From an uncultured Rivibacter sp. (GTDB lineage Bacteria; Pseudomonadota; Gammaproteobacteria; Burkholderiales; Burkholderiaceae), in the NCBI GenBank assembly GCA_946481025.1, contig CAMLNA010000056.1, positions 1-25,506 on the forward strand: a stretch of DNA of 25,506 nucleotides. The letters are read 5' to 3'. Of this stretch, positions 14,531-22,592 are shown piece after piece (positions within the stretch are counted from its first letter, which is position 1; each line of letters starts with the position of its first letter). A model generated the notes under the pieces. The model did no database searches, had not been told where the DNA came from, and was given only the letters and a program-made list of their open reading frames with translations. The position numbers were made by a program, and so were the translations under genes.

Positions 14531-15892
14531 CTACCGGCTGGCCGCGGAGGCCGCGGGCGGGGCGGCCTCCGCGGCCGGGTTGGCGGAGGTCACGCGCCAC
14601 ACCGTGTTGCCCACGTCGTCGGCCACCAGCAGGCCGCCGCGCTTGTCGATCGCCACGCCCACCGGCCGGCCGTAGGCGTCGCCGCCTTCGCTCACGAAGC
14701 CGGTCAGCACGTCCTCCGGCACGCCGCGGGGACGGCCGTTCTCGAAAGGCACGAACACCACCTTGTAGCCGCTGCGCGGCTTGCGGTTCCACGAGCCATG
14801 CTCGCCGATGAACATGCCGGCCGCGAAGCGCTGCGGCAGGGTGGCGCCTTCGGAGGTGGAAAGCCCGAGCGGGGCCACGTGCGAGCCGAGCGCGTAGTCG
14901 GGTTTCACCGCCTTGGCCACCAGTTCGGGACGCGGCGGCTTCACGCGCTCGTCGACGTTCTGCCCGAAGTAGCTGTACGGCCAGCCGTAGAAGGCGCCGT
15001 CGCGCACCGAGGTGAGGTAGTCGGGCACGAGGTCGCTGCCGATCTCGTCGCGCTCGTTCACCACCGTCCACAGCACGCCGGTCGAAGGCTCCCATGCAAG
15101 GCCGTTGGGGTTGCGAAGCCCGGTGGCGAAAAGGCGCTTGCTGCCGGCCTTCGGGTCCACCTCCCAGATGGCGGCACGGCCCTCCTCGATGTCCATGCCG
15201 TTCTCGCCGACGTTGCTGTTGCTGCCCACGGTGGCGTACAGCTTCGCGCCGTCGCGGCTGGCGATGAGGTTCTTGGTCCAGTGGTGGTTCAGCCCTGCAG
15301 GCAGGTCCACCACCTTGGTGCCGGCGGCGTCGATGCGCGTCGCGCCCGGCGTGTACGGAAAGCGCATCACCGCATCGGCATTCGCCACGTACAGATCGTT
15401 GCCCACCAGGGCCATGCCGAACGGCGAGAGCAGGCCTTCGAGGAAGGCGGTCTTCACTTCGGCCGTGCCGTCGCCGTCGGCGTCGCGCAGCAGCGTGATG
15501 CGGTTGGGGCTGGGCACGCCCGCGCCGGCCTTGGCCATCACCTTCTTCATGACCCAGCCCTTGATGCCGCCGCCGTCGCTGCCCTCGGGCTTGGGCGGGG
15601 CGTTCGACTCGGCCACCAGCACGTCGCCGTTGGGCAGCACGTGCAGCCAGCGCGGGTGCTGCAGGCCGGTGGCGAAGGCCGCCACCGCAAGGCCGGCGGC
15701 CGGCGCCGGCTTCTGTCCCGAAGGCCAGCCCTTGGCCGGCGCGATGTGCACGGTGGGGACAAGCGTCTTGTTCGGCTGCGGCAGCGTCGGATCCGGGCCG
15801 ATGCCTGCCGTGTCGGGCAGCTTTGCCGATTCGCCGCAGCCTGCGGCGGCCAGCACGGCGGCGGCCAGCACCAGTGAACGTCCTGTGTTCAT
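14531..15892 (-). CDS. Sorbosone/glucose dehydrogenase-type lipoprotein, likely PQQ-dependent
   Basis: 453-residue six-bladed beta-propeller of the glucose/sorbosone dehydrogenase family, where characterised members oxidise sugars or aldoses with PQQ. A signal peptide ends in LAAAGC, so Cys19 is probably lipidated and the protein faces the periplasm. The family pattern includes [59 protein letters not shown] and the late [19 protein letters not shown] repeat. The start ATG at 15892 has AAAGGA upstream. It follows the dihaem cytochrome c gene by 56 nt on the same strand, an arrangement that suggests the cytochrome is its electron acceptor. No pqq biosynthesis gene lies in the window. Substrate not determinable; sorbosone is only the family name. 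Confidence 0.88.
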
Positions 15893-16904: not shown

Positions 16905-17279
16905 ATGGTTCCCCACCCCAACATCTCAAGGCTGGCCGCTGCCACAGCCTCGGCGCTGCTGGCGGCCTGCCTGCCGGCGCCGCAGGCGCGCCAGGGCCCC
17001 GGTGATGCGGAACGGGGGCGCCGGCTGATCGCCCAGTACCAATGCGGAGCGTGCCACTCGGTGCCCGGCGTCGAGGATGCGCAGGGCACCCGTGCGGTCA
17101 CCCTCGAGGCCTTCGGGCGGCGCAGCTACATCGCCGGGCGCGTGCCGCAGCAGCCCGAGCTGCTGGTGCGCTGGATCGTCGAGCCGGCTTCGTTGGTGCC
17201 CGGCACGACCATGCCCGCCATGGGCGTGGGCGAGCGCGACGCGCGCGACATCGCGGCCTACCTCGGGGGCCTGCGCTGA
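16905..17279 (+). CDS. Monohaem cytochrome c, probable lipoprotein
   Basis: 124-residue small cytochrome c. The N-terminus is a short signal ending in LLAAC, so Cys22 may be lipidated. The haem-binding motif is CGACH (47-51), and the distal ligand is Met103 or Met106 (TTMPAMGV). The start ATG at 16905 gives the best signal peptide, though the ribosome site is poor. It shares the pattern GRR-x-IAG, RWI-x-x-P, MPA, ERDA-DIAAYL with the second domain of the divergently encoded dihaem cytochrome, so the two are paralogues. Its stop codon overlaps the ATG of the oxidase subunit II gene by one base (TGATG), so it is the first gene of the oxidase operon and probably a direct electron donor or subunit. 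Confidence 0.87.
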   Translation: MVPHPNISRLAAATASALLAACLPAPQARQGPGDAERGRRLIAQYQCGACHSVPGVEDAQGTRAVTLEAFGRRSYIAGRVPQQPELLVRWIVEPASLVPGTTMPAMGVGERDARDIAAYLGGLR

Positions 17280-18208
17280 TGCTGTCGCCCGCTTCGGCAC
17301 ACCCGGCGCAAGGCCTGGCCGAAATGACCTTCGTGCTGATCGCGGGCGCGGCGCTCGTCTTCACCGGCGTGATGTGGCTGCTGGCCGTGGTCGTGTGGCG
17401 CCGCCGGGCTCGGCCGCTGACGCGGCGCCAGGCCGCGGCATGGGTGCTGGGCGGCGGCGTGCTGCTGCCGGCGCTGGTGCTGTCGGCGCTGCTCGCGTAT
17501 GCCACCGTGCGCAGCGGAGCGCTGGCCGATACGCAGCGGGCGCGGGGTGACATGGTCGTGGGGATCACCGCGCACATGTGGTGGTGGGAAGTGCGCTACC
17601 GCGAACGCGCATCGGGCCGCGAGGTGGTGCTGGCCAACGAGGTCCGCCTGCCGGTGGGCCGCGCGGCCAGCTTCGGCCTGTCGACCGCCGACGTGATCCA
17701 CAGCTTCTGGGTGCCGCAGCTGGCAGGCAAGGTGGACATGGTGCCCGGGCGCGTGCACCAGCTGCGCGTGCGTGTCGACGAAGCCGGCAGCTTCCGCGGC
17801 CAGTGCGCCGAGTACTGCGGCGAGCAGCATGCGCGCATGGCGCTGCAGGTCGTCGCCATGCCGCCCGACGAGTTCGATCGCTGGCTGCTCGCGCAGTCGC
17901 AGCCGGCGCAGTCGCCAAGGTCCGAGCGCGCGCGGCGCGGTCGCCAGCTGTTCGAGCAGCAGCGATGCAACGCCTGCCATGCGGTGCGAGGCCTCGTGGA
18001 AGCCGGGCCGGGGCAGGGCCCGGACCTCACCCATGTGGGCAGCCGGCTGGCGCTGGGTGCCGGCACGCTGGACCTGCGGCACGAGAACCTCGTGCGGTGG
18101 GTGGGCGACGTGCAGGCGGTGAAGCCCGGGGCACGCATGCCCTCGTTCGACCGGCTGGACCGCGAGTCTCTCGAGGCGCTTGCAGCGTTCCTGGGGGAGT
18201 TGCGATGA
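17279..18208 (+). CDS. coxB: Cytochrome c oxidase subunit II with C-terminal cytochrome c domain (caa3-type)
   Basis: 309-residue subunit that accepts electrons from cytochrome c and passes them through CuA to subunit I. Two transmembrane helices (about 15-40 and 53-76) anchor a periplasmic cupredoxin domain. The aromatic motif AHMWWWEVRY (98-107) is present. All CuA ligands are visible: His141 (HSFWVP), Cys176, Glu178, Cys180, His184 and Met187 (QCAEYCGEQHARM). A C-terminal cytochrome c domain carries CNACH (230-234) and a distal Met287, making this a caa3-type subunit. The start overlaps the preceding cytochrome stop by one base. The N-terminus is short before the first helix, with no obvious cleavable signal or lipobox. 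Confidence 0.93.
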   Translation: MLSPASAHPAQGLAEMTFVLIAGAALVFTGVMWLLAVVVWRRRARPLTRRQAAAWVLGGGVLLPALVLSALLAYATVRSGALADTQRARGDMVVGITAHMWWWEVRYRERASGREVVLANEVRLPVGRAASFGLSTADVIHSFWVPQLAGKVDMVPGRVHQLRVRVDEAGSFRGQCAEYCGEQHARMALQVVAMPPDEFDRWLLAQSQPAQSPRSERARRGRQLFEQQRCNACHAVRGLVEAGPGQGPDLTHVGSRLALGAGTLDLRHENLVRWVGDVQAVKPGARMPSFDRLDRESLEALAAFLGELR

Positions 18209-18255: not shown

Positions 18256-20757
18256 ATGCGCTTTCCCCCCAGCAAGCTCCCGCGTCCGCCAGGAGAACTC
18301 GAGCGCCTCGAGCAGGCCTGGCGCACCCCGCAAGGCTGGCGCCTGCTCTCGACGGTCAACAACACGAAGGTCGGCGTCTTCTACATCGCGACCTCGCTGC
18401 TGTTCTTCGTGCTGGCCGGCGTGCTGGCGCTGCTGATGCGCGCGCAGCTCGCGGTGCCCGACAACGACCTCGTCAGCGCGCGCCTCTACAACCAGCTCTT
18501 CACGATGCACGGCACGGTGATGATGTTCCTGTTCGCAGTGCCGGTGGTGGAAGCGGTGGCGGTGTTCCTGCTGCCCGGCATGCTCGGCGCGCGCGACCTG
18601 CCGTTTCCCAGGCTGTCCGCCTATGCGTTCTGGGCCTATGCGATCGGCGGCCTGGCCTTCTTCTGCACGCTGTTCTTCGGCCTCGCACCGGATGGCGGCT
18701 GGTTCATGTACCCGCCGCTGGCCAGCGCCGCCTACTCGCCCGGGCTGGGCGCGGACTTCTGGCTGCTGGGCATCGGCTTCATCGAGATCTCGGCCATCGC
18801 CGGAGCCATCGAACTCATCGTGGGCATCCTGTTCACCCGCGCGCCAGGCATGACGCTGTCTCGCATGCCGGTGTTCGCGTGGGCCATGCTGGTGGTGGGG
18901 GTGATGATCGTGTTCGCGTTTCCGGCGGTGATCGCCGGCACCGCGTTGCTGGAACTGGAGCGCGCCTTCGGCTGGCCCTTCTTCATGGCCGAGCGCGGCG
19001 GCGACCCGGTGCTGTGGCAGCACCTGTTCTGGTTTTTCGGCCACCCGGAGGTCTACATCATCTTTCTCCCGGCGGCCGGGCTCGTCTCGATGATGCTGCC
19101 CACCCTCGCCGGCACGCCGCTCGTGGGGTATCGCGCGGTGGTGCTGGCGCTCGGGGCCACCGGTTTCTTCAGCTTTGCGCTATGGGCGCACCACATGTTC
19201 ACCGCGGGGCTGGGCGTGCTCACCAGCAGCCTCGTGTCGGCCGCCAGCATGGCGGTGGCGGTGCCGGCGGGCATGCAGGTGTTCGCCTGGCTGGCCACGC
19301 TGCGGCAGGGGCGGCTGCGGCTCACCGGCTCCGGCCTCTTCCTGCTCGGTTTCCTCTTCACCTTCGTGCTCGGCGGGCTGACCGGCGTGATGGTGGCGGC
19401 GCTGCCCTTCGACTGGCAGGCGCATGACAGCTACTTCGTCGTCGCGCACCTGCACTACGTGCTGATCGGCGGCATGGTGTTTCCGCTGTTCGCGGCGCTG
19501 TACCACTGGTCGCCGCTGCTCAACGGGCATGCCTTGAGCGAGCGTCTCGCGCGCTGGGTGTTCGGGCTCATGTTCGCGGGCTTCCACCTCGCGTTCTTTC
19601 CGATGCACATCTCCGGCCTGCTGGGCATGCCCCGGCGTGTCTACACCTATGCGGGCGACCTGGGCTGGAACGTCTGGAACCTGGTGTCCACCGCGGGGGC
19701 CTTCGTGCTGGCGGCCGGCGTGGTGCTGTTCTTCTTCGACGCGGTGCGCACCTGGCGGCGTGCGCACCGGGCTCACGGCGACCCATGGAACGCGGCCACG
19801 ATGGAGTGGCTGCCGCAAGGCGACTACGGCGCCCGCAGCATCCCGTGGGTGCGTTCACGCGAGCCGCTGTGGCGGCAGCCCGGGCTGGCCCGCGAGGTGG
19901 AAGCCGGCGCCCACTGGCTGCCCGGCACCGTGACCGGCCGGCGCGAGACGCTCGTCACCTCGCCTCGGCGCGCGCGGCTGTGCCACCTCATCGTGCTGCC
20001 GACCGACTCCTGGTGGCCGCTGGCCGCAGCAGCCGGCACGGCCGGGTTCTTCCTGCTGCTCACGGTCAAGCTGGTGTGGCTGGCCTGGTGCTGCGGCGCG
20101 GTGGCGGTGGCGGCGACGCTCGCCTGGCTGTGGCAGACCGATCGCCCCACGGTGGCGGCGGCGCAGGTGGGCGAGGGCGTGGTCCTGCCCGTGGGGGCCG
20201 CCGGGGCACGCTCGCACTCGTGGTGGGCCGCCGTGGTGTGGCTGGTGGTGGACGCGACGATCTTCGCCTCGCTGGTGTTCGCCCACCTGCATGTGTCGAT
20301 GCGGGCCGAGGTATGCCCGCCCGCGGGCGCCAGCCTGCCGCCGTGGTCGTCCGTCGCGGCGGGCGTGGTGCTGTGGGGCCTGAGCTCCGCGGGCGCGGCG
20401 GCGCTGCGGCGCGTGGCAACGCGCGCCAGGGTGGTGGTGGGCTGCCTGCTCGCAGCAGCGCTGCTGTGCGCGCTGGCCGCCACGGCCGCCTCGCTGGGCG
20501 GCCATGCGGTCGCGGGCCTGCAGCCGGTGGCCGACGCGTGGAGCGCCACGGTCGCGGCGCTGGCGGGCTACCAGGCACTGCACACGGCGCTGCTGGTGGT
20601 GATGGCGGGCTACCTGGGGGCACGCCTGCTGTGCGGGCACGTCACGCCGCGCAGCCGTGCCACGCTCGACAACACGGTGCTCGTGTGGCACGGCTGCGCG
20701 GCGCAAGGCGCGGTGTCGGCACTGGTGGTGCAAGTGCTGCCGTGGGTGATGCAATGA
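18256..20757 (+). CDS. ctaD: Cytochrome c oxidase subunit I-subunit III fusion
   Basis: 833-residue fused haem-copper oxidase subunit. Residues 1-500 are subunit I with 12 helices; after a linker (about 500-580) residues 580-833 resemble subunit III. Redox ligands are present: haem a His85 and His400, haem a3 His398, CuB His263, His312 and His313, and Tyr267 in HPEVY. Arg460/Arg461 hold haem propionates. D-channel acids Asp114 and Glu265 are kept. The K-channel residues are not: VPAGMQ replaces the usual VPTGIK, giving Ala338 for Thr and Gln341 for Lys, although Ser278 remains. In the subunit III part the conserved helix Glu is Asp667 (VVDATIFASLVFAHLHV). GGGTGA precedes the ATG. It belongs with subunit II and the small membrane protein in one operon. 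No assembly genes (Surf1, CtaG, haem O/A synthases) are present in the window. Confidence 0.92.
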   Translation: MRFPPSKLPRPPGELERLEQAWRTPQGWRLLSTVNNTKVGVFYIATSLLFFVLAGVLALLMRAQLAVPDNDLVSARLYNQLFTMHGTVMMFLFAVPVVEAVAVFLLPGMLGARDLPFPRLSAYAFWAYAIGGLAFFCTLFFGLAPDGGWFMYPPLASAAYSPGLGADFWLLGIGFIEISAIAGAIELIVGILFTRAPGMTLSRMPVFAWAMLVVGVMIVFAFPAVIAGTALLELERAFGWPFFMAERGGDPVLWQHLFWFFGHPEVYIIFLPAAGLVSMMLPTLAGTPLVGYRAVVLALGATGFFSFALWAHHMFTAGLGVLTSSLVSAASMAVAVPAGMQVFAWLATLRQGRLRLTGSGLFLLGFLFTFVLGGLTGVMVAALPFDWQAHDSYFVVAHLHYVLIGGMVFPLFAALYHWSPLLNGHALSERLARWVFGLMFAGFHLAFFPMHISGLLGMPRRVYTYAGDLGWNVWNLVSTAGAFVLAAGVVLFFFDAVRTWRRAHRAHGDPWNAATMEWLPQGDYGARSIPWVRSREPLWRQPGLAREVEAGAHWLPGTVTGRRETLVTSPRRARLCHLIVLPTDSWWPLAAAAGTAGFFLLLTVKLVWLAWCCGAVAVAATLAWLWQTDRPTVAAAQVGEGVVLPVGAAGARSHSWWAAVVWLVVDATIFASLVFAHLHVSMRAEVCPPAGASLPPWSSVAAGVVLWGLSSAGAAALRRVATRARVVVGCLLAAALLCALAATAASLGGHAVAGLQPVADAWSATVAALAGYQALHTALLVVMAGYLGARLLCGHVTPRSRATLDNTVLVWHGCAAQGAVSALVVQVLPWVMQ

Positions 20758-21215
20758 AAGGCGACCGCTTCGTGGCCCACGCGCGCCAGGCGGTGCTGCC
20801 GCTGCTGGCGTGGGCCTTGCACTTCGGCTTCTGCTACGTGTTCGTCGCCGCAGCCTGCAGGGCGCAATGGGAGGCGCCCCTCATCACCGGCACGCTCGTC
20901 GCAGCGTCGGCCCTGGCCGGCCTGTGGCTCGCGGGGCTGCTGGCCGCGGCGCTCAGGCACCGCCCCGGGCGGGCGGTGCGTGCAGGCGCTTCGGTGCTGG
21001 CCCTGCTGGGCGTGGCCTGGGCCGCGCTGCCCGTGCTGGTGCTGCCGCTGCCGCCGTGCAGCGACCCGGCAGCCTATTCCTGGCTGGCGGCCAGCAGGTC
21101 GAGCGCGGCGTTCACCGCCTGTGCCTCGCCCTTGAGCGCGACCGGCGCGCCGTTCAAGGCGGCCGAACCTTCCTTCTTGAAGCGGCTCACCCAGGCGCCC
21201 GCATCGCGCGGCTGA
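20754..21215 (+). CDS. Small three-helix membrane protein of the oxidase operon
   Basis: 153 residues as read, overlapping the fusion gene stop by ATGA (20754-20757). Three hydrophobic helices are seen at about 13-34, 44-66 and 78-98, followed by LPLPPCSDP. Its position suggests an accessory subunit or assembly factor of the oxidase, perhaps comparable to the fourth gene of coxMNOP-like clusters; that comparison is from gene order only. The membrane part ends near residue 100. From codon 107 the frame runs through 142 nt antisense to the end of trpS, and this tail lacks protein-like character. The original stop may have been lost, or the tail may simply be tolerated. Confidence 0.75.
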   Translation: MKGDRFVAHARQAVLPLLAWALHFGFCYVFVAAACRAQWEAPLITGTLVAASALAGLWLAGLLAAALRHRPGRAVRAGASVLALLGVAWAALPVLVLPLPPCSDPAAYSWLAASRSSAAFTACASPLSATGAPFKAAEPSFLKRLTQAPASRG

Positions 21216-22390
21216 TCGAATCCCTCGCTCTGCAGCAGCACCGCGCCGGCCGCGTCGGTGAGCTTGAAGAAGAACCGGCCGTCGGCTTCGCGGTACTGCT
21301 TGAACACCGGCAGCGCTGGCTTGCCGGTCGCCGCCGGCGCGGCCTTGCCGGCCGCGGCAGGCGAGGCCAGGGCATGCATCCTGCGCAGGCCCACCGCGTC
21401 GCGCAGTTGCGCGAGGAACGGCGTGGCCACGGCACGCGCCTTGCGCGCTCCTTCCTGCAGGGCTTCTTCCACCCGCTCGGGATGGGCCATCAGCTCCTCG
21501 TAGCGGGCGCGCAGCGGGCCGATGTCGCGTTCGATCAGCTCGGCCAGCCGCTTCTTGGCATCGCCCCAGCCGAGGCCGGCCTTCAGGTCCTGGCGGAAGG
21601 CCTCACGCTCCTCGGGTTTCGCAAACGCGTCGTGGATCATCACCAGCGCCGAGCCCTCGGCTTCCTTCGGCTCGCCGGGCAGCCGCGAGTCGGTCACGAT
21701 GCGCGCGATCGCATCGGCGAGCGCCTTCGTGCCGCCTTCGAACAGCGGGATCGTGTTGTCGTAGCTCTTGCTCATCTTGCGGCCGTCGAGGCCGGGCAGG
21801 GTGGCCACGTGTTCCTCGATCACCGCCTCGGGCAGCACGAAGTGCGGCTTGTCGGCCGAGCCGAACAGGTGGTTGAAGCGCTGGGCGATGTCGCGTGCCA
21901 TCTCGATGTGCTGCACCTGGTCGCGGCCGACCGGCACCTTGTGCGCGTTGAACAACAGGATGTCGGCCGCCATCAGGATGGGGTAGCAGAACAGGCCCAT
22001 CGACACGCCGTCGTCCGTCTCGGCACCGGCGGTCTCGTTCGCGTCGGTGGCCGCCTTGTAGGCATGGGCGCGGTTCATCTGGCCCTTGGCGGTGACGCAG
22101 GTGAGCAGCCAGGTCAGCTCGGTGATCTCGGGCACGTCGCTCTGGCGGTAGAAGGTCACCCGGGCCGGGTTCAGGCCGGCGGCGAGCCAGGTGGCGGCCA
22201 GTTCCATGCGCGAGCGCTCCACCCGCGCCGGCTCGTCGCACTTCACCAGCGCGTGGTAGTCGGCCAGGAACAGGAAGCTTTCAACGCCGGGCTCGCGGCT
22301 GGCCGCGATGGCCGGGCGGATGGCGCCCACGTAGTTGCCGAGGTGGGGGGTGCCGGTGGTGGTGATGCCGGTGAGAACGCGCTGGGTCAT
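21074..22390 (-). CDS. trpS: Tryptophan-tRNA ligase with C-terminal extension
   Basis: 438-residue class I aminoacyl-tRNA synthetase that charges tRNA-Trp. The HIGH-equivalent is in GTPHLGNYVG (13-22) and the second signature is GRKMSKSYDN (203-212). The central SMGLFCYPILMAADILLF and VPVGRDQVQHIEMARDIA segments are diagnostic for TrpS. The catalytic and helical domains end near residue 340, the usual length. An extra part follows: an Ala/Pro-rich linker (341-362) and a domain, FKQYREADGRFFFKLTD...LLQSEGF, resembling YegP/DUF1508. I choose the ATG at 22390; a TTG three codons earlier is possible. The last 142 nt overlap the convergent oxidase-operon gene. Confidence 0.95.
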   Translation of the reverse strand: MTQRVLTGITTTGTPHLGNYVGAIRPAIAASREPGVESFLFLADYHALVKCDEPARVERSRMELAATWLAAGLNPARVTFYRQSDVPEITELTWLLTCVTAKGQMNRAHAYKAATDANETAGAETDDGVSMGLFCYPILMAADILLFNAHKVPVGRDQVQHIEMARDIAQRFNHLFGSADKPHFVLPEAVIEEHVATLPGLDGRKMSKSYDNTIPLFEGGTKALADAIARIVTDSRLPGEPKEAEGSALVMIHDAFAKPEEREAFRQDLKAGLGWGDAKKRLAELIERDIGPLRARYEELMAHPERVEEALQEGARKARAVATPFLAQLRDAVGLRRMHALASPAAAGKAAPAATGKPALPVFKQYREADGRFFFKLTDAAGAVLLQSEGFDQPRDAGAWVSRFKKEGSAALNGAPVALKGEAQAVNAALDLLAASQE

Positions 22391-22592
22391 GGTCAGCAAA
22401 GGCGGTGGGTTTTCGGGGCGTGCAAGACCGATATGCTATTTGACCTCGCAGGGTACGCGCCCTTGACCCGGCCGGACACGTGTGGGGCATGCCGATCGGC
22501 TACGCTCACCGGCTTTCGCCGCGAGCCTTCCCTTCGGTGCACACCGCACCGCCCCTTCGATGGCTCGTGCGACACGAAACGACGGAGATCCC
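22391..22592. other. Divergent intergenic region, trpS / ABC exporter
   Basis: About 200 nt between divergent genes, expected to hold both promoters. Two TTGACC hexamers occur on the plus strand at 22440-22445 and 22463-22468, possible -35 elements, but no good -10 is seen at the right distance. A 10-bp palindrome, GCCGATCGGC, is at 22491-22500. No small gene or RNA was recognised. Confidence 0.4.

Follow-up and report, generated by a model that had tools for sequence, protein, structure and literature searches.

Textbook A-family oxidases possess two proton channels. The window analysed here (the whole stretch of 25,506 nucleotides, contig CAMLNA010000056.1, from an uncultured Rivibacter sp.) encodes an oxidase subunit I with glutamine and alanine at the sites of the K-channel lysine and threonine. 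How would such an enzyme obtain its protons, and is the change a quirk of this gene or a property of a lineage?

Locus and Oxidase Genes

The oxidase genes lie side by side on the plus strand:

16905..17279, plus strand: small cytochrome c (Pfam Cytochrom_C; start inferred), directly upstream of subunit II
17279..18208, plus strand: subunit II with fused cytochrome c domain (Pfam COX2 and Cytochrom_C; start inferred)
18256..20757, plus strand: COX1-COX3 fusion of 833 amino acids, subunit I plus III (open reading frame; Pfam COX1)
18256..19755, plus strand: COX1 portion of the fusion
20754..21215, plus strand: small membrane open reading frame overlapping the stop of the fusion

The reading frame of the fusion is intact across all 833 amino acids. 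Its COX1 portion matches the Pfam profile with 464 bits against a cut-off of 34.8; the COX3 portion gave no Pfam COX3 match and was identified from its similarity to other COX1-3 fusions. Together with the COX1 profile, the six His ligands and the active-site Tyr267 mark the protein as a heme-copper oxygen reductase subunit I. Its best homologue among the 120 matches listed, labelled Methylibium rhizosphaerae, is 92% identical.

For comparison between loci, a genome scan in which at least 593 of 594 stretches were confirmed provided the best 80 loci. Open reading frames resembling the small membrane one occur at only two of these; in the window it overlaps, in antisense, the 3' end of a class I tRNA synthetase-like gene (21074-22399, minus strand). 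On the other side the oxidase genes adjoin a divergent lipoprotein-like gene whose product contains a glucose/sorbosone dehydrogenase domain (14531-15892, minus strand; start inferred). A homologue is found close to four of the best 80 loci beyond the window, that is, within flanks of up to 6 kb, at 5/60 loci of the glutamine type (window counted) and 0/21 of the lysine type; it is therefore no general partner of the oxidase, and we rejected it as a functional one.

Loss of K-Channel Residues in Subunits I and II

Four features of subunit I, all on the plus strand, frame the K-channel question, together with the start of a subunit II helix:

19261..19290, plus strand: K-channel segment VPAGMQVFAW, residues 336-345 (from alignments)
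19267-19269, plus strand: Ala338, at Thr359 of Rhodobacter sphaeroides and Thr351 of Paracoccus
19276-19278, plus strand: Gln341, at Lys362 of R. sphaeroides and Lys354 of Paracoccus
19048..19056, plus strand: D-channel Glu265 and active-site Tyr267, in GHPEVY
17420..17449, plus strand: start of the second helix of subunit II, TRRQAAAWVL, the entry-glutamate site of lysine-type enzymes, here without an acid

Residues 336-345 align without gaps both to Bacillus subtilis aa3-600 and to R. sphaeroides, which fixes the equivalence of Ala338 and Gln341 with the A-type threonine and lysine and bears out the replacement claimed in the earlier note. The intact active site described there was likewise recovered in full: His85, His263, Glu265, Tyr267, His312/313, His398, His400, Asp114, and Ser278 are all present. 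That note had also named what would speak against it, a lysine one turn away in the same channel. We took helix limits from an AlphaFold2 model (mean pLDDT 74.9) and assigned residue faces by helical wheel. The sole Lys, Arg, His, Asp, or Glu of modelled helix VIII (323-351) is Arg350, at the helix end, and helix IX (358-382) of the window protein has none, so that no such lysine occurs in either helix and a substitute Lys or His by the K-channel was rejected. All solved chains in the alignments shown, four for the window, one for a Bradyrhizobium glutamine-type protein, and one for the actinobacterial locus L062 discussed below, carry Lys at this site. In model enzymes, a K-channel Lys-to-Met mutant stops heme a3 reduction (PMC12901375, excerpt).

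The glutamine is no quirk of the window. In a set made of the window and the best 120 of 7999 homologues scored, Gln341 is present in 121/121, and chance or a private mutation was accordingly rejected as its source. Position 338, on the other hand, holds Thr in 66, Ser in 44, and Ala in 11 of these 121 proteins, a hydroxyl residue thus being present in 110, and position 278 is Ser in 115 and Thr in 6. As to how common the pair is in fused oxidases, on which the earlier note had professed ignorance, the answer differs between its two halves: judged from these sequences, Lys-to-Gln is a fixed trait of the lineage and Thr-to-Ala is sporadic.

The same lineage lacks a second K-channel element. In R. 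sphaeroides the channel entry is Glu101 of subunit II (PMC10341450, excerpt). Subunit II was located at 76 of 81 loci (the best 80 plus the window), and the entry glutamate is present in 17/18 lysine-type rows (the remaining one has Gln) and in 0/58 of the glutamine type. Five further lysine-type loci also have it; another 15 were left uncounted, their stretches ending before the subunit II segment, and one has no subunit II. In 9/66 glutamine-type subunit II rows, the window not among them, an acid stands four columns earlier; the alignment there is uncertain by a few residues, so in those nine a shifted acid is possible. Loss of the subunit II glutamate together with the lysine counts as one event, in a single lineage, rather than as a correlation seen repeatedly.

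Given the absence of the lysine, the entry glutamate and, in the window, the threonine hydroxyl, the simplest interpretation would be a K-pathway that no longer conducts and a D side that supplies the substrate protons. The residues that stay behind nonetheless suggest that the K segment still has some role, as Gln341 never varies among the 121 proteins and Ser278 hardly does, and this counts against the D-side reading. A K-channel that works without its lysine is in fact the alternative we take most seriously, if as a doubtful one: Gln341, Ser278, any hydroxyl residue at 338, and Tyr267 would hold a proton-conducting water chain. The invariance of Gln341, the Ser (115) or Thr (6) at 278, and the 110 hydroxyl residues at 338, all within the 121 proteins above, are what such a chain would require, and B- and C-type enzymes possess an alternative K-channel with other residues at these sites (PMC3084760, excerpt; table in PMC12901375). 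Yet Ala occupies 338 in the window itself, the entry glutamate is absent from 58/58 subunit II rows, and the Thr/Ser/Tyr set published for B-type enzymes in place of Lys/Thr/Ser is not matched.

Distribution and Phylogeny

We compared 83 diverse COX1 rows (the best 80 loci, the window, R. sphaeroides, and B. subtilis aa3-600), of which 60 have Gln at the lysine position (Gln-type) and 23 Lys (Lys-type). Among the best 80 loci and the window, the Gln rows include both COX1-3 fusions of about 830-880 amino acids and COX1 proteins of about 615-655. Those of the best 80 loci are chiefly alpha-, beta-, and gammaproteobacterial; Bdellovibrionota, Gemmatimonadota, Rokuibacteriota, and Actinomycetota contribute one locus each. 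When 299 genomes drawn from the same phylum as a Variovorax genome were screened with a DNA pattern for the Gln motif, 25 matched; on reading the 29 matched strings, 17 genomes were accepted (the central Variovorax included) and 8 rejected, and the reversed-pattern control matched 3 of the 299-genome sample. The resulting figure of about 6% of genomes is rough, because the DNA pattern misses some codons.

Two unrooted trees place the Gln rows together. In the larger one (111 rows, 105 of them different, built with the channel columns, L105, and L021 excluded), 67/67 Gln rows lie on the same side of one branch (SH-aLRT 98). In the smaller one, with 64 chosen rows including 13 added actinobacterial proteins, the Gln/Lys split is supported at 100/99 and unites 39/39 Gln rows, 25 of a proteobacterial-type set and 14 of an actinobacterial set. 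Since Lys is spread across several phyla, it was presumably lost in the Gln lineage rather than gained elsewhere, a polarity read from unrooted trees.

A further residue, Pro410, follows the same division, being present in 60/60 Gln-type and 0/23 Lys-type rows (best 80 loci, window, and references) and, among the matches listed, in 121/121 actinobacterial Gln proteins and 120/120 proteins of the Trp/Ala group described below. It provides a second marker for the Lys-less group.

Might the enzyme simply be decaying, a weakly active oxidase in a minor role whose channel residues drift? All 21 Gln-type genomes searched gave several COX1-family matches each, and in 20 of the 21 a second oxidase with the Lys motif was found at a locus (19 aa3-like, one grouping with B. 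subtilis aa3-600), so a Lys-type gene is usually at hand. The coxMNOP promoter of Pseudomonas KF707, a cluster likened to ours by its arrangement and not by sequence, shows very low activity on both glucose and biphenyl (PMC5492768, excerpt). Against this stand Gln341 and three glutamates of the D side (Glu99, Glu177, and Glu186), each present in 121/121 (window plus best 120 of 7999), as well as the intact 833-residue frame and the retained metal ligands. Such conservation indicates constraint, not drift, and we consider decay very improbable.

Remodelling of the D-Channel

The D side of the window protein also departs in part from the A1 pattern. The sites concerned are:

18550..18552, plus strand: Glu99, helix II, one turn from the Asn121 site of R. 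sphaeroides
18562..18564, plus strand: Val103, at D-channel Asn121 of R. sphaeroides
18595..18597, plus strand: Asp114, at the D-channel entry Asp132 of R. sphaeroides
18616..18618, plus strand: Ser121, at D-channel Asn139 of R. sphaeroides
18784..18786, plus strand: Glu177, helix IV, at Gly198 of R. sphaeroides
18811..18813, plus strand: Glu186, helix IV, at D-channel Asn207 of R. sphaeroides

From the alignment with B. subtilis aa3-600 and a sequence motif, we take Tyr43 to be the counterpart of Paracoccus Tyr35. The A1 D-channel set comprises eight residues in Paracoccus numbering, Asp124, Asn199, Asn113, Asn131, Tyr35, Ser134, Ser193, and Glu278 (PMC3084760, excerpt), and the window protein retains three of them, as Asp114, Tyr43, and Glu265. 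The other five are altered: Asn113 to Val103, Asn131 to Ser121, Asn199 to Glu186, Ser134 to Ala124, and Ser193 to Ala180. Thus, the statement in the earlier note that the enzyme keeps its D-channel is right for the entry aspartate, the tyrosine and the glutamate, and wrong for the Asn and Ser lining.

The three glutamates are found in Gln-type rows only: Glu99 in 54/60, Glu177 in 59/60, and Glu186 in 54/60, each against 0/23 in the Lys-type, where the Glu177 site is Gly in 22/23 and the Glu186 site Asn in 23/23. By helical wheel, Glu99 shares a face with the D-channel residues listed in the excerpt of PMC10341450, and the Glu186 site is itself among those residues. Glu177, which varies least of the three, is predicted to sit off the channel face, at about 126 degrees from it, which counts against the D-side reading.

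Ser121 bears on pumping. The equivalent site is Asn in 23/23 Lys-type rows, and the 60 Gln-type rows have Ser (29), Asn (20), Gly (5), Thr (5), or Ala (1) there. Replacement of the bovine equivalent, Asn98, by Asp, Thr, or Ser leaves O2 reduction in place and abolishes pumping (PMC12901375, excerpt), and normal pumping by the window enzyme is therefore doubtful. The same paper, in the part available, itself favours the H-pathway as the route for pumping.

The entry aspartate is replaced in 16/60 Gln-type rows (Asn in 12, Ser in 4), again to the disadvantage of the D-side reading. These rows (L041, L042, L043, L045, L046, L048-L053, L055, L056, L057, L059, and L074) are mostly shorter enzymes, in which both channels lack a named residue. 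In an enlarged set of 68 Gln rows, duplicates included, 7 of the 21 rows without the entry Asp are also without Glu186.

Sister Groups

Two related groups delimit how far a D-side route could be generalized. The first comprises the L062 protein and the 120 matches listed for it, several named Gaiellaceae, with Gln at Lys362 in 121/121. Among these, Asn121, Asp132, Asn139, Asn207, and Glu286 (R. sphaeroides numbers) are each present in 121/121, a canonical D-channel; in L062 and its matches listed (P0127-P0246) the Ser299 site carries Thr and the Thr359 site Ser, and the subunit II at L062 is without the entry glutamate. Since this actinobacterial Gln group manages with a canonical D-channel, Glu99, Glu177, and Glu186 are no required compensation for the lost lysine.

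The second group is represented by L105 (1003-2985, minus strand), a COX1 from the Methylobacter genome that also carries L020; in the tree its single row joins the actinobacterial group (100/96). Its homologues listed (P0248-P0367) include the names Methylobacter, Methylomicrobium, Nitrosospira, and Caballeronia. Among these 120 matches the Glu286 site is Trp in 120/120, and the Lys362 site is Ala in 114, Ser in 3, Gly in 2, and Thr in 1; no departure from the canonical pattern appeared in the other D-channel residues and His ligands checked or in the Tyr, and Ser occupies both 338 and 278 in 120/120. This Trp/Ala group is thus without either key residue of the proton channels, Lys362 or Glu286, and a route by the D side only, as formulated above, fails in it. 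That Ser is kept at 338 and 278 in all 120 listed, despite the lost D-channel glutamate, is rather in favour of the Lys-less K-channel.

The Trp/Ala group also lends something to a third route, neither canonical D nor K, perhaps via Glu177, since its listed members keep all His ligands checked and the Tyr while lacking both Lys and the D-channel Glu. Glu177 itself is found in 59/60 Gln-type rows away from the D-channel face, and 16/60 have Asn or Ser for the entry Asp. The placement of Glu177, however, comes from a helical wheel and not from coordinates, the same wheel turns Glu186 and Glu99 to the D side, and Glu265 is present in the window; we regard a third route as improbable.

Proposed Proton Route

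Overall, we propose that the K-pathway was dismantled in one lineage by the change of Lys to Gln in subunit I and the loss of the entry Glu from subunit II, and that the proteobacterial branch remodelled its D-pathway, with much of the Asn/Ser lining replaced and Glu fixed at 99, 177, and 186. In model enzymes the D-channel serves the oxidative phase (PMC12901375, excerpt). Here all protons for O2 reduction, including those of the reductive phase that normally use the K-channel, would enter by the D side, running from Asp114 by way of Ser121 and Glu186/Glu99 to Glu265, and pumping would be lost or of different stoichiometry. Several observations support this D-side reading: Gln341 in 121/121 (best 120 of 7999 plus window) and the Gln rows on one side of a branch in the trees; the subunit II glutamate in 0/58 Gln-type against 17/18 Lys-type rows; the restriction of Glu99, Glu177, and Glu186 to the Gln-type, of which Glu186 takes the place of a D-channel Asn and Glu99 lies along the channel face; helices VIII and IX without a substitute lysine; and Ser121 at the site of the decoupled Ser, Thr, and Asp mutants (PMC12901375, excerpt). 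Besides the points already raised against it (Glu177, the entry Asp, and the shifted acid in 9/66 subunit II rows), the co-loss is a single event on unrooted trees. Weighing both sides, we give a dismantled K-pathway, substrate protons by a remodelled D side, and lost or altered pumping about an even chance of being correct. The earlier note had offered a different proton route, less efficient pumping, or slow turnover; the missing subunit II glutamate, the remodelled D-channel, and Ser121 fit this well, and sequence cannot choose among the three.

More broadly, and more tentatively, the lineage as a whole may have left the K-pathway once, its proteobacterial branch then relying on a D-side path rich in glutamate, with no conventional pumping or a different stoichiometry, and the sister clade with neither Lys nor the D-channel Glu having to use a route not yet described. 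In either case, a conserved natural lineage without the K-channel lysine and without its partner glutamate in subunit II makes the two-channel design directly testable. Together with its two sister groups, one combining Gln with a canonical D-channel and the other Ala with Trp, it forms a natural mutant series that bears on which channel carries which protons and on what pumping requires.

Comparison with Known Oxidases

Set against published classifications, the window enzyme is mixed. Of the A-type K-channel fingerprint (Lys354, Thr351, Ser291, and Tyr280; PMC3084760, excerpt) it lacks the first two and has the last two. Glu265 is present, in place of the Tyr by which the same excerpt defines A2 enzymes, and where B-type enzymes have Thr/Ser/Tyr for the K-channel Lys/Thr/Ser and no D-channel residues, the window has Gln/Ala/Ser with Asp114 and Glu265. 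The nitric oxide reductase motifs given there, H-X-(Arom)-X-E and H-H-X-(Arom)-(Arom)-X17-E, are replaced by HPEVY and HHMFT. Among solved structures, A-family aa3 enzymes score highest, at 430 bits, and B-type structures reach at most 44 bits; the NCBIfam CtaD_CoxA score, 662.3 bits, is slightly below its cut-off of 670.75, and our trees were built without a B or C outgroup. On sequence grounds, the enzyme departs from both the A-type K-channel and the A1 D-channel fingerprints, yet its nearest solved relatives are A-family, and we place it provisionally in that lineage. Some public labels in the family read "cbb3-type cytochrome c oxidase subunit I" (e.g. P0003), a label that does not suit it.

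A literature search found no account that combines Gln at the lysine site, absence of the subunit II glutamate, and Glu in place of a D-channel Asn, and no biochemistry for any purified Gln-type member; the supplementary variant classification of PMC8239418, or Degli Esposti 2020, may cover the lineage. Under one hypothesis of PMC8239418 (excerpt), the K-channel was lost repeatedly in archaeal family A, so that loss of the canonical K-channel is common to both cases; the lineages there are archaeal, and not that of the window. B- and C-type oxidases also lack Lys at this position (PMC3084760 and PMC12901375, excerpts), but they have no D-channel residues, whereas the window has the Asp, Tyr, and Glu and not the B-type Thr/Ser/Tyr set.

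The architecture itself is already in the literature, under the names COX operon types a and a-II or "A1 oxidases, subtype a" (PMC4013037 and PMC6431628, excerpts), and the window has the corresponding COX1-3 fusion beside a cytochrome c-fused subunit II. Both fusions and the A1-type Glu are common to it and to types a and a-II, A1 subtype a, and coxMNOP, and the alpha-, beta-, and gammaproteobacterial spread of types a and a-II is that of the Gln-type. In the parts available, these sources cover architecture and phylogeny, and the likeness of the window rests on architecture and not on channel residues. With the canonical A1 aa3 enzymes of R. sphaeroides, P. denitrificans, and mitochondria, a class to which both channels are assigned for A types (PMC3084760, excerpt), the window enzyme has in common the Pfam COX1 match, the His ligands, the Tyr, Glu265, Asp114, and Ser278; it differs from them in having Gln for Lys, Ala for Thr, and no subunit II glutamate, in altering five of the eight D-channel residues, and in adding three glutamates.
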